From NCBI RefSeq assembly GCF_036226685.1, contig NZ_CP109009.1:2604001-2668000 (forward strand): a stretch of 64,000 nucleotides of DNA, given 5' to 3'. Every line of letters begins with the position of its first letter. The first letter of the stretch is position 1. Both the position numbers and the translations under genes were made by a program. The notes beneath the pieces were generated by a model, which saw only the letters and a list, made by a program, of their open reading frames with translations, was not told where the DNA came from and made no database searches. Shown piece by piece: positions 17,302 through 20,786 of this stretch. This DNA is from Streptomyces sp. NBC_00690. GTDB lineage: Bacteria; Actinomycetota; Actinomycetes; Streptomycetales; Streptomycetaceae.

Positions 17302-17502
17302 TCAGGTCTGCGGGGGCTGTCCCTGCCCCGAGGTGCCACCGGAGCCGTACTGGCCCTTCATCTTGTCCTGGGCGGTGTCCACCTGGCCGGTGTACTTGCC
17401 CTGGGTCTTCTCGTCGACCTTGTCACCGGCCCGGTCGACGCCCTTGTCTGCCTGGGACTCGTGGCCCTTGAGCATGTTCTTGAGCTTGTCCATCACGGAC
17501 AT
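17302..17502 (-). CDS. Small antitoxin-like protein (MT0933/Rv0909 antitoxin family)
   Basis: This 66-aa charged helical protein reads MSVMDKLKNMLKGHESQADK, then GVDRAGDKVDEKTQGKYTGQ. It matches the MT0933-type antitoxin family, which in Mycobacterium precedes a toxin gene. The C-terminal tail is Gly/Gln-rich. Start follows AAGGGATG; an in-frame ATG three codons later also fits. No toxin gene adjoins it. The nearest gene upstream, 182 bp away on the same strand, encodes the restriction-like protein. Most Streptomyces copies are orphan and may have another role, so a toxin-antitoxin function should not be assumed. Confidence 0.7.
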   Translation of the reverse strand: MSVMDKLKNMLKGHESQADKGVDRAGDKVDEKTQGKYTGQVDTAQDKMKGQYGSGGTSGQGQPPQT

Positions 17503-17684
17503 GGGGTCATCCCTTCTGCGCTCGTCCCCCTCTACTCCAGGGTCACCGCACAAGCGGCGCTCCGCATCCCGGCAGCCCTGAGGAGCCCTGAGAGCCCGGA
17601 AACGACGGACCACCGATCGGATTCCCGGCGGCCCGTCGTACGGGGGCGACTACTGCGGCGGGCGCCTACAGCACCGGCAGGGGT

Positions 17685-19019
17685 TCACACGAGCACATCG
17701 TCCTCACGACCGGGCCAAGCAAGGGTGATGCCGACCCGCTCGCACAGGGCGACCCATCGAGAGTCCGACGGCTCGCGCTCCACCCACAAGACGGCCCTTA
17801 CGGAAGCAGCCCTGTCCCTGAGCCTGTCGTGGTAGTCGAGAAGTTGTCCGATCCCCGTGCGTAGTTGACGGGTCTCATTGGCGGGCGTCAGTGACTTCAC
17901 CTCGCACACCGTCAGATCGGCAGGGGGCAGACGCCATCCGAGATCGAAGTCGGGGTCCGCGACACCTGGCGAGAACACCTCCAGTCCACGCGCGACGGCG
18001 GCCTTGGCCAGGTCGTTCTGTAGCTTGCGGTGCGCCTTGAGGTTTCTCCCGACGAGATCCGAGTCCGGGGGGCTGAGCTGGGCAGGGGACGGGGCGACCG
18101 ACTCGTCCGCCTCGCGGTATCCACAACCGACCGGAACGTCCGCCGGCTGGGTGGAGCGACCGACCGGCGCCAGATGGAACTGGATGACGGGCCTGAGCGG
18201 ACCGCCGCCCGTCTCCGGCGCTTCACCCCAGGAGTACGGCTGCTCCGGGTCCACCGCGAACTCGCCGACATATCGAATGATGCCGCGTGACCCCTCGAAG
18301 AGCCGCAAGGCGAGCCCGAGACTCACATGGTCACGCGTGGACGCATTGCCCAAGGTCTCGAAGGTCTGCGGTCCGATCTGTCCATCGCCCGTGTAGTGGA
18401 ACGTGCCGTCCTCGGCCCACTTGTCGAAGTAGCCGTGCTGGTGACCCGTCTTGGGGTCGCTGAACAGCAGCACGTTCTTCGACTTGGCGCACTTGCTCAT
18501 ACCGCCCTGGCGGCTACCGCCGTAGCGGTCGTGCAGCTCCTTGCGCTTGATGGTCTGGCCGGGCAGGAGGTGCCAGGCAGACGCGGTGTCCACGATCTGT
18601 CCGGCCGTGAATGCCTCCTCGAAGGCGCTCCACTGCTCCTCGGACACCCGGTGCGGATTCGTGGCGAACAAGGTGTTCAGCGGCGACCGCTGCTCGAAGC
18701 GCGCGTCCGCCTTGAACCGCTGCCGTGGGATCGCCTGCGTGAGCCATTCATCCATGACCAGCGGCGCGTACCAGCGCGTTCCGGGGTCTTGCTGCCAGTA
18801 CTCATCCGGGGCACTCGGCTGCTGCGTCGGCACACCAGTGATACGCCCCCGGCCGACAAGCCCTCCACCAGGGCCCGTGACCCACATGACGAACTCGTCG
18901 CCGTCGGCCAACTCCTTCAGGTGCCTCCCGACGCTCCAGGACCTGAGGCTGTGCCCATCCTGCCGGTACCTGTCGAGCTCGAACATCTCCTGGTTGCACG
19001 CCAGAAGCCACGTCGCCAT
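17685..19019 (-). CDS. EVE-like / ScoMcrA-type SRA / PD-(D/E)XK fusion: predicted type IV restriction endonuclease
   Basis: This 444-aa protein appears to have three parts. Residues about 1-120 resemble an EVE (modified-base reader) domain: TWLLACNQEMFELDRYR, GDEFVMWVTGPGGGLVGRGR, and late NPHRVSEEQWSAFEEAF. Residues about 160-285 resemble the SRA-like domain of ScoMcrA: RKELHDRYGGSRQGGMSKCA, DGTFHYTGDGQIGPQ, RGIIRYVGEFAVD. The C-terminal about 110 residues carry a PD-(D/E)XK core: FDLGWRLPPADLTVCEVKSL with Asp and E-x-K, then Gln-Tyr in GIGQLLDYHDR. Enzymes of this type cut DNA bearing modified bases. A GTG two codons upstream is an alternative start. It appears inserted next to glnA2, as accessory defence genes often are. 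Domain calls are by eye. Confidence 0.7.
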   Translation of the reverse strand: MATWLLACNQEMFELDRYRQDGHSLRSWSVGRHLKELADGDEFVMWVTGPGGGLVGRGRITGVPTQQPSAPDEYWQQDPGTRWYAPLVMDEWLTQAIPRQRFKADARFEQRSPLNTLFATNPHRVSEEQWSAFEEAFTAGQIVDTASAWHLLPGQTIKRKELHDRYGGSRQGGMSKCAKSKNVLLFSDPKTGHQHGYFDKWAEDGTFHYTGDGQIGPQTFETLGNASTRDHVSLGLALRLFEGSRGIIRYVGEFAVDPEQPYSWGEAPETGGGPLRPVIQFHLAPVGRSTQPADVPVGCGYREADESVAPSPAQLSPPDSDLVGRNLKAHRKLQNDLAKAAVARGLEVFSPGVADPDFDLGWRLPPADLTVCEVKSLTPANETRQLRTGIGQLLDYHDRLRDRAASVRAVLWVEREPSDSRWVALCERVGITLAWPGREDDVLV

Positions 19020-19129
19020 GCCCACCCCCGTTGGGTCGAGGAGATCAATCCCATGAGGCTACGACAGCACGCTGACAATCCGCGGAGACCGGTTTCGACG
19101 TCAGACGGCCCGGGGCGGGCGAGACGACT

Positions 19130-19160
19130 CAGGGCCAGCGGCTGACGGCCGCTGGCCCTG
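19130..19160 (-). terminator. Hairpin downstream of glnA2-type gene
   Basis: A perfect 12-bp stem CAGGGCCAGCGG / CCGCTGGCCCTG with a 7-nt loop lies 37 bp after the synthetase stop codon and before the restriction-like gene on the same strand. Confidence 0.7.
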
Positions 19161-19196
19161 ATGGTCGTTTCGGAGATGACTCGCTCTCACCTGCGC

Positions 19197-20558
19197 CTAC
19201 AGCACCGGCATCATCTTCCGCAGCTCGAAGGCCGTGACCTCGGAGCGGTACTCCTCCCACTCCTGCTTCTTGTTGCGCAGGAAGAAGTCGAAGACGTGCT
19301 CCCCCAGCGTCTCGGCGACCAGTTCGCTGCGCTCCATCAGGGAGATCGCCTCGCCGAGGTTCTGCGGCAGCGGTTCGATGCCCATCGCCCGTCGTTCGCC
19401 GTCCGACAGCGCCCATACGTCGTCGTCCGCGCCGGGCGGCAGTTCATAGCCCTCCTCGATGCCCTTGAGGCCCGCGGCCAGGAGCACCGCATAGGTCAGG
19501 TAGGGGTTCGCGCCCGAGTCGATGGAGCGCACCTCGACCCGCGAGGAGCCCGTCTTGCCCGGCTTGTACATCGGGACGCGGATCAGCGCCGAGCGGTTGT
19601 TGTGGCCCCAACAGATGTACGAGGGGGCTTCGCCGCCCGCGCCCGCGCTGCGGGCCGAACCGCCCCAGATGCGCTTGTAGGAGTTGACCCACTGGTTGGT
19701 GACGGCGGAGATCTCCGCCGCGTGGCGCAGTAGGCCGGCGATGAAGGAGCGGCCCACCTTGGAGAGTTGGTACTCCGCACCGGACTCGTAGAAGGCGTTC
19801 CGGTCCCCCTCGAAGAGGGAGAGGTGGGTGTGCATCCCGGAGCCCGGGTACTCGCTGAACGGTTTCGGCATGAAGGTCGCCTGTACGCCCTGTTCCAGCG
19901 CGACCTGCTTCATCACCAGCCGGAAGGTCATGACGTTGTCGGCGGTGGAGAGTGCGTCGGCGTACCGCAGGTCGATCTCCTGCTGGCCGGGGGCGCCCTC
20001 GTGGTGGCTGAACTCCACCGAGATCCCCATGGACTCCAGCATGGTGATCGCCTGCCGGCGGAAGTCCATGCCGACGTTCTGGGGGGTGTGGTCGAAGTAG
20101 CCCGAGTTGTCGGCGGGCACGGGTCGGCTGCCGTCGAGGGGCTTGTCCTTCAACAGGAAGAACTCGATCTCCGGGTGGGTGTAGAAGGTGAAGCCCAGAT
20201 CGGAGGTCTTGGCGAGCATCCGCTTGAGCACATAGCGGGGGTCGGCGAAGGACGGGGAGCCGTCGGGCATGAGGATGTCGCAGAACATCCGGGCCGTGCC
20301 CGGGGCCTCCGCACGCCAGGGCAGGATCTGAAAGGTGCCCGGGTCCGGCTTGGCGATCATGTCGGATTCGTACACGCGGGCGAAGCCCTCGATTGCGGAT
20401 CCGTCGAAGCCGATGCCTTCGTCGAACGCCTGCTCAAGCTCGGCGGGGGCCACCGCGACCGACTTCAGGAAGCCGAGCACGTCGGTGAACCACAGACGCA
20501 CGAAGCGGATGTCGCGCTCCTCCAACGTGCGGAGCACGAACTCCTGCTGCTTATCCAT
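19197..20558 (-). CDS. glnA2: Glutamine synthetase family protein, GlnA2 type
   Basis: This 453-aa member of the type I glutamine synthetase family has the beta-grasp N-domain (RFVRLWFTDVLGFLKSVAV) and catalytic motifs FDGSAIEGFARV, GSGMHTHLSLF and RVEVRSIDSGANPYL. The region that carries the adenylylated Tyr (NLYxL) in canonical GlnA reads DDVWALSDGE, with Trp, so control by GlnE is unlikely. In S. coelicolor and Mycobacterium a glnA2 lies near glnE; the S. coelicolor enzyme has been described as a gamma-glutamylpolyamine synthetase rather than a glutamine maker, and the same is inferred here. Start ATG follows GGAAGGATTGGGTGGCA. It is monocistronic with a hairpin after it. Confidence 0.85.
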   Translation of the reverse strand: MDKQQEFVLRTLEERDIRFVRLWFTDVLGFLKSVAVAPAELEQAFDEGIGFDGSAIEGFARVYESDMIAKPDPGTFQILPWRAEAPGTARMFCDILMPDGSPSFADPRYVLKRMLAKTSDLGFTFYTHPEIEFFLLKDKPLDGSRPVPADNSGYFDHTPQNVGMDFRRQAITMLESMGISVEFSHHEGAPGQQEIDLRYADALSTADNVMTFRLVMKQVALEQGVQATFMPKPFSEYPGSGMHTHLSLFEGDRNAFYESGAEYQLSKVGRSFIAGLLRHAAEISAVTNQWVNSYKRIWGGSARSAGAGGEAPSYICWGHNNRSALIRVPMYKPGKTGSSRVEVRSIDSGANPYLTYAVLLAAGLKGIEEGYELPPGADDDVWALSDGERRAMGIEPLPQNLGEAISLMERSELVAETLGEHVFDFFLRNKKQEWEEYRSEVTAFELRKMMPVL

Positions 20559-20786
20559 TGCCACCCAATCCTTCCACCCACTCATTGCTGGTCGAGCCGT
20601 CCGCTCCCGCGAGCATCCCATCCATGGGTTTCCGACACATTGCGCACCAGCGCTGAGCCCCATTGTGGGTCAGGGTGCACCGCCGTACGACCCTGAGGGC
20701 GCCCTGGGCGGTTCCCGGGTGGTTCCGGCCACCTGGCGAAAGCTGTTTTGGCCGCCCCGTATGAGGTGCTCGGCGGGCTCGCTCGC

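Follow-up and report, generated by a model that had tools for sequence, protein, structure and literature searches.

The 64,000-nucleotide stretch of Streptomyces sp. NBC_00690 analyzed here (contig NZ_CP109009.1, positions 2,604,001 to 2,668,000; hereafter the window, in whose own coordinates all positions are given) carries on its minus strand, at 17685–19019, a gene encoding a 444-amino-acid protein in which an EVE domain, an SRA domain of the ScoMcrA type, and a PD-(D/E)XK nuclease domain were found joined in one chain. An earlier note on this DNA had proposed such a fusion as a candidate modification-dependent restriction enzyme, and the place and length of its open reading frame (ORF) are confirmed here. 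The ORF runs from an ATG at 19019 to a stop codon at 17685–17687, with a GTG two codons upstream (19025) as another possible start, and its G+C content by codon position is 67/49/83%. It has conserved homologues and is a real gene under selection, since the ratio of nonsynonymous to synonymous substitution rates (dN/dS), at about 0.1, is 0.10 and 0.13 against the close orthologues L004 and L005. The region directly upstream (19020–19087, minus strand) is shared with other copies, the DNA similarity to L004, L005, L012, and L014 stopping at 19085–19091, and probably contains the promoter and ribosome binding site.

Searched alone, the protein gave no Pfam, NCBIfam, or PADLOC family even at an E value of ≤10, which is why annotation pipelines may miss it, and phmmer against the PDB returned a weak EVE match only (E 0.022). 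The three domains were found by profiles of 22 relatives and by AlphaFold models compared with Foldseek, in agreement with the fusion proposed earlier. The alignment used, A2, has 23 rows: the window protein, 19 full-length relatives, and three rows covering the SRA-nuclease stretch only. None of these rows matched an NCBIfam family at E ≤0.01, and 12 of the 23 matched mREase_IV, the type IV model of PADLOC.

The EVE domain comprises residues 1–142 (18594–19019, minus strand). Pfam EVE (PF01878) was matched by 11 of the 23 rows (best E 8.4e-7), and the EVE protein 2eve was recovered both by profile, over positions 1–132 (E 0.0019), and by Foldseek (E 1.2e-5). W75 (18795–18797) is invariant in the eight-member alignment (8/8) and in all 20 A2 rows that have an EVE part, and aligns with Y82 of 2eve, a pocket residue that corresponds to W82 of the VcaM4I base pocket (PMC7897488). 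A sulfur-binding domain at the N terminus is ruled out, as this part matches EVE. That the EVE domain works as a DNA clamp, a dimerization part, or an autoinhibitory part rather than as a base reader is unlikely, given that the aromatic pocket residue is retained and that the EVE domain of VcaM4I both blocks and reads. The SRA domain follows at residues 147–290 (18150–18581, minus strand), where ScoMcrA (5zmn) was matched by profile at positions 151–238 (E 3e-5) and by Foldseek (E 3.3e-8), and SAD_SRA (PF02182) by 13 of the 23 rows (best E 2.1e-5).

Residues 320–444 (17688–18062, minus strand) form an XisH-like PD-(D/E)XK nuclease domain. XisH (PF08814) was matched by 15 of the 23 rows (best E 6.1e-4), and a profile match to the XisH-like protein 2inb was obtained at E 0.31; a literature search on XisH together with SRA returned nothing relevant. 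Modeled alone, this domain reached a predicted local distance difference test score (pLDDT) of 91.7, and Foldseek matched it to Card1, Cdn1, EndoMS, EcoO109I, Ecl18kI, and EcoRII (E 0.002–0.06) and best to an R2 retrotransposon protein (E 6.5e-4), families whose PD-(D/E)XK fold is established. D359 (17943–17945), E373 (17901–17903), K375 (17895–17897), and Q392 (17844–17846), all on the minus strand, are the Asp, E-x-K, and Gln residues claimed earlier; they are invariant in the eight-member alignment and are presumably the catalytic motif residues of this family. No HNH family was found in any of the 23 A2 rows at E ≤0.1 and a PD-(D/E)XK fold was found instead, so the nuclease does not belong to the HNH type of ScoMcrA, as the earlier note had also argued.

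The full-length AlphaFold model (pLDDT 80.8, predicted template modeling score [pTM] 0.39) matched AspBHI, ScoMcrA, MspJI, EVE proteins, and plant SRA domains in Foldseek. AspBHI and MspJI were among the top matches, and their alignments, of 366 and 373 columns, would be long enough to span SRA and nuclease together; match ranges are not printed by Foldseek, and the domain covered by each match was taken from sequence alignments. The structure prediction that had been suggested as a check thus returned EVE and SRA folds as well as a PD-(D/E)XK nuclease fold.

The gene is flanked by two exact copies of an 18-bp sequence, GCGCCTACAGCACCGGCA, at 17662–17679 and 19193–19210, and no exact repeat of 18 bp appeared in 100 shuffles. 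The right copy, attL-like, is the 3′ end of an intact glutamine synthetase gene on the minus strand (19197–20663; Pfam Gln-synt_C, E 1e-122), which we take to be glnA2, and the left copy, attR-like, repeats this 3′ end at a displaced position. The 18-mer occurs in 32 of 295 Streptomyces genomes and is present twice only in the source genome and in G015. At the 13 of 30 single-copy sites that were examined, it was the end of glnA2 in 13/13, and glnE was present in 11 of these 13 stretches. The accessory slot supposed by the earlier note is therefore real and is explained as an attachment site at glnA2 with flanking 18-bp repeats.

In two further genomes, integrase-bearing elements with the restriction gene at one end occupy this site. 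In G015 (L033/L044) the repeats lie 17.5 kb from each other, with the restriction gene at one end and a tyrosine integrase on the glnA2 side, and the element also holds an AAA ATPase, a GntR-NUDIX protein, and a member of the same cluster as an FtsK-like protein; several of its other proteins gave no Pfam match. Streptomyces sp. NRRL F-2580 (L091/L092) has a second glnA2-end element, of 18.8 kb, in which the displaced glnA2 end (47.2 kb) is followed by the EVE-SRA-PD(D/E)XK gene (48.4–49.8 kb), the integrase (64.6–65.9 kb), and an intact glnA2 that begins at 65.95 kb. The integrases of the two elements are 78% identical. In the window, 19104–19192 aligns with the integrase tail, terminator, and att flank of the G015 element with a score of 58, versus 14–29 for the 13 single-copy sites; the aligned segment is made up of the tail of an integrase gene (19104–19126), a terminator-like hairpin (19131–19159), and the att flank. 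Because of this alignment, the window evidently holds an internally deleted integrative element, with the restriction gene kept between the att repeats. The gene would have arrived as cargo at the end of an integrative element of the conjugative type, directed to the glnA2 3′ end by its tyrosine integrase, and the remainder of the element would have been lost in the source genome, so that the glnA2 site shows one restriction gene outliving the element that delivered it.

Decayed elements with a partial integrase, cargo, and two repeats have been described for Streptomyces (PMC9513070). These decayed integrative and conjugative elements of actinomycetes share with the window the two direct repeats, the cargo, the partial integrase, and the occurrence of intact elements in relatives, and differ in their sites, which in the accessible part of that paper are tRNA genes and rlmN instead of the glnA2 3′ end. 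Among the eight full-length carriers, only the source genome and G015 have the gene at the glnA2 site; the other full-length copies were not near glnA2 in the stretches examined, and some adjoin Schlafen-type or DEAD-box helicase genes. Next to the left repeat, a gene at 17302–17613 matches the MT0933-like antitoxin family (PF14013). No DNA methyltransferase was found by Pfam (E ≤1e-5) among nine selected neighbor ORFs between 12.9 and 23.6 kb.

A full-length copy is present in 8 of the 295 Streptomyces genomes, the source genome (G000) included, and any match to the 444-amino-acid protein in 67. The other genome collection scanned yielded 26 loci, 19 of them with a match from the start of EVE to the end of the nuclease. 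Relatives that lack EVE also occur, such as L062, with a 312-amino-acid frame and 59% identity over residues 149–443, and plasmid-encoded proteins with HNH endonuclease or AAA ATPase annotations contain the SRA stretch as well. The source genome itself has two partial relatives. One (L002, G000:C1:3994393-3995211) has a 315-amino-acid frame that is matched in the SRA-nuclease part with 43% identity, and the other (L003, 717692–718030) is matched in the nuclease part only; the N-terminal part of L003 gave nothing in Pfam at E ≤0.05, and its BRCT-like look is an impression only. At L059 (11832–12938) and L060 (11766–12752) a second relative lies within ∼2.5 kb of the full-length gene. The data do not support a viral source for the entire protein, since the phage relative covers residues 144–444 only (one phage, two records) and the matches to eight viral contigs start no earlier than residue 94. 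In Gordonia phage Sidious an SRA-nuclease relative, gene 63 (L191), stands directly before two annotated methyltransferase genes.

A nuclease dependent on 5-methylcytosine (5mC) is expected not to coexist with host cytosine-C5 methylation in the contexts it reads. We called C5-methyltransferases as PF00145 matches at E ≤1e-20, a threshold fixed after viewing 32 genomes, with 14 further named carriers serving as an out-of-sample check. Such a match is present in 185 of the 295 Streptomyces genomes, in one of the eight full-length carriers versus 184/287 of the other genomes (P = 0.005). The out-of-sample carriers (11 Streptomyces and 3 of other genera) had it in 3/14 (P = 0.003), where two of the three positives are Nonomuraea and Kitasatospora and the base rate is known for Streptomyces alone; among the 11 named Streptomyces carriers the count was 1/11. 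Pooled, full-length carriers stand at 4/22 versus 184/287 (P = 4e-5). Adenine methyltransferases (PF02384), used as a control, showed no bias, with 17/22 carriers versus 28/36 noncarriers.

The same deficit was found for SRA relatives without EVE, with 9/42 versus 175/245 (P = 1e-9), a group in which many members matched in the SRA stretch alone. The group excludes the interrupted matches G058, G238, G011, and G009 and, unintentionally, G084 and G221, and adding the last two gave 10/44 versus 174/243 (P = 1.7e-9). The 15 SRA relatives whose match continues into the nuclease (interrupted G058 included) gave 5/15 versus 175/245 (P = 0.003), whereas nuclease relatives matching from residue ≥267 only, without an SRA match, gave 5/8 versus 170/237 (P = 0.69). 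Broken or truncated copies (G128, G190, G268, and G279) were counted apart, with 3/4 versus 181/283 (P = 1.0).

For the phylogenetic tests we used a tree of the glnE gene alone and a linear probability model on 90 of the 295 genomes, namely the 8 full-length carriers, the 42 SRA-only genomes, and a random sample of 40 of the 228 genomes lacking any match. All SRA carriers taken together (n = 90) gave P = 2.5e-4 with lambda fitted at 0, and full-length carriers versus noncarriers (n = 48) gave P = 0.028 at the fitted lambda and 1.7e-4 at lambda 1. Nearest carrier/noncarrier pairs were split 19 to 4 (P = 0.0026), and the eight full-length carriers need eight changes on the glnE tree. It is very unlikely, in our judgment, that lineage or other type IV genes produced the deficit as a side effect and that the target is another modification. 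The carriers do come mostly from one genus, and several 5mC-dependent systems are known from S. coelicolor (PMC6212794); however, the eight changes, the persistence of the effect in tree-aware and nearest-pair tests, the lack of depletion of adenine methyltransferases, and the repetition in 14 out-of-sample genomes all speak against it. The avoidance instead suggests that the enzyme cuts incoming DNA with methylated cytosine. Where the earlier note had a modified base as the target, cytosine modification as that target gains indirect support from the C5-methyltransferase deficit, and avoidance by carriers of the SRA type can be said to predict a target from sequence alone.

Taken together, we consider it likely that the protein is a type IV restriction enzyme dependent on 5mC or 5-hydroxymethylcytosine (5hmC) and brought in as mobile-element cargo. 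As in type IV enzymes, modified-base readers are joined to a nuclease, and the conflict with host methylation is seen indirectly as the deficit in C5-methyltransferases, with 4 exceptions in 22. Because ScoMcrA reportedly owes its dependence on 5mC/5hmC to its SRA domain (PMC7461809), and PvuRts1I and other SRA-PD(D/E)XK fusions are known modification-dependent enzymes (PMC12707154), we infer that the SRA domain would flip out of the helix a cytosine modified at C5 (5mC or 5hmC), that EVE probably does so too, and that base flipping licenses nearby cleavage by the C-terminal PD-(D/E)XK nuclease. The enzyme would probably act as a dimer or larger assembly, would require no ATP, and would serve in defense, with EVE as a second sensor. 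Carriers would be expected to be poorly transformable by Dcm-methylated E. coli DNA.

What EVE adds to the SRA domain bears on two stricter versions of this mechanism. The protein could be a logic gate in which SRA reads 5mC/5hmC and EVE must bind a second, or a different and bulkier, modification, with only doubly modified DNA being cut. EVE is found in 19 of 26 loci, W75 in all 20 rows with an EVE part, and ScoMcrA is a known two-reader enzyme with a sulfur-binding domain and SRA; yet EVE-less relatives (L062 and the 42 SRA-only genomes) avoid C5-methyltransferases about equally, with 9/42 versus 4/22. EVE is therefore not needed for the 5mC conflict, for which the SRA part seems to be enough, and we regard the gate as a rather doubtful proposal. 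Decidedly unlikely is a true two-key enzyme, traveling on glnA2-inserting elements and helping them to shut out hosts or rivals that have cytosine-C5 methylation. In such an enzyme EVE and SRA would flip separate modified bases, or act on the two strands of a single site, and the nuclease would fire only with both readers filled. The protein nevertheless offers a natural system for asking what two PUA-type readers do jointly, with the EVE-less L062 as a ready control.

The beneficiary of the enzyme may also be debated. A weapon with which the mobile element competes, keeping out hosts or rival elements equipped with C5-methyltransferases, would fit its cargo position, which is at the same end of both elements, its retention after loss of the remainder, and the avoidance of C5-methyltransferases by its carriers. 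This proposal has the same biochemistry as host defense and differs only in who benefits, and some copies adjoin the defense-like genes mentioned above; we hold it to be possible but rather improbable.

Several observations count against the 5mC/5hmC-dependent enzyme proposed here. By sequence, the top match of the nuclease was to an unrelated synthase (E 0.059), with no close solved relative, and the arrangement of the domains in the full AlphaFold model is uncertain at a pTM of 0.39. The 5mC-binding residues of UHRF1 and SUVH5 are not conserved in the SRA domain of ScoMcrA (PMC6224610). The avoidance belongs to SRA carriers generally and is not specific to EVE, and other 5mC-dependent nucleases encoded by these genomes could explain it; for all SRA carriers it weakens to P = 0.03 under Brownian motion (lambda 1). 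The 3/4 count in broken copies agrees with the model but does not differ from the base rate. Finally, a strong match to a C5-methyltransferase coexists with the gene in 4 of the 22 full-length carriers (G149, Nonomuraea L060, Kitasatospora L061, and L048), G149, the sole in-sample exception, having a canonical enzyme with GPPC in motif IV. The match in Nonomuraea L060 has SPPC, hence SPPC can occur in a strong PF00145 match, and the weak PF00145 match of G137 has no PPC motif and could not be classed.

Motif IV was searched only as xPPC in the in-sample carriers and only as GPPC or SPPC in the out-of-sample exceptions. Kitasatospora L061 and L048, the latter with a 199-amino-acid frame, have neither GPPC nor SPPC, so that these matches speak for neither activity nor inactivity. 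The SRA domain of G149 is itself altered, with changes in the GHQHGY and HYTGEGQ motifs that were spotted post hoc; L051, the other protein with this altered SRA, comes from a genome without a strong C5-methyltransferase. Among carriers with a weak PF00145 match, G000, G015, G226, and G243 show SPPC in motif IV of the matching protein, and an S. coelicolor protein with this motif was judged probably inactive (PMC6212794). The SPPC protein of G000 is L192 (G000:C1:7771300-7773400), a PF00145-like protein common to several carriers that may act on another substrate or be inactive. L051 and L063, from S. endocoffeicus and S. niphimycinicus, are full length with an altered SRA signature, and a canonical C5-methyltransferase is present in one of the two genomes; the specificity of these proteins may have changed.

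Our literature search on EVE with SRA in restriction enzymes, conducted partly at the abstract level and with supplements outside its scope, found no EVE-SRA-PD(D/E)XK enzyme. The closest known systems each share part of the layout. ScoMcrA (S. coelicolor Sco4631, SBD-SRA-HNH, where SBD is the sulfur-binding domain) has the same SRA type and likewise two readers before the nuclease, but EVE takes the place of the sulfur-binding domain here and PD-(D/E)XK that of HNH. The MspJI/AspBHI family, whose members form tetramers and cleave at a fixed distance, places an SRA-like domain ahead of PD-(D/E)XK within a single chain and supplied the top Foldseek matches (4oc8 and 4f0q); it differs in having no EVE, and sequence homology to it was absent from five profile matches up to E 1. 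VcaM4I, an EVE-HNH enzyme, likewise starts with an EVE reader (Foldseek match to 6yex, E 5.3e-3) and differs in its HNH nuclease and, in the accessible part of its report, in having no SRA (PMC7897488). EVE-PD(D/E)XK and EVE-HNH enzymes had been predicted earlier (PMC7641849); the predicted EVE-PD(D/E)XK type IV enzymes resemble the protein in the fusion of EVE to a PD-(D/E)XK nuclease, with no SRA named in between in the accessible part of that paper, whose legend states that additional domains are often present. EVE-PD(D/E)XK, SRA-PD(D/E)XK, and SBD-SRA-HNH enzymes are thus known already, and what is new, within the searched literature, is the combination of EVE, SRA, and PD-(D/E)XK in a single protein.
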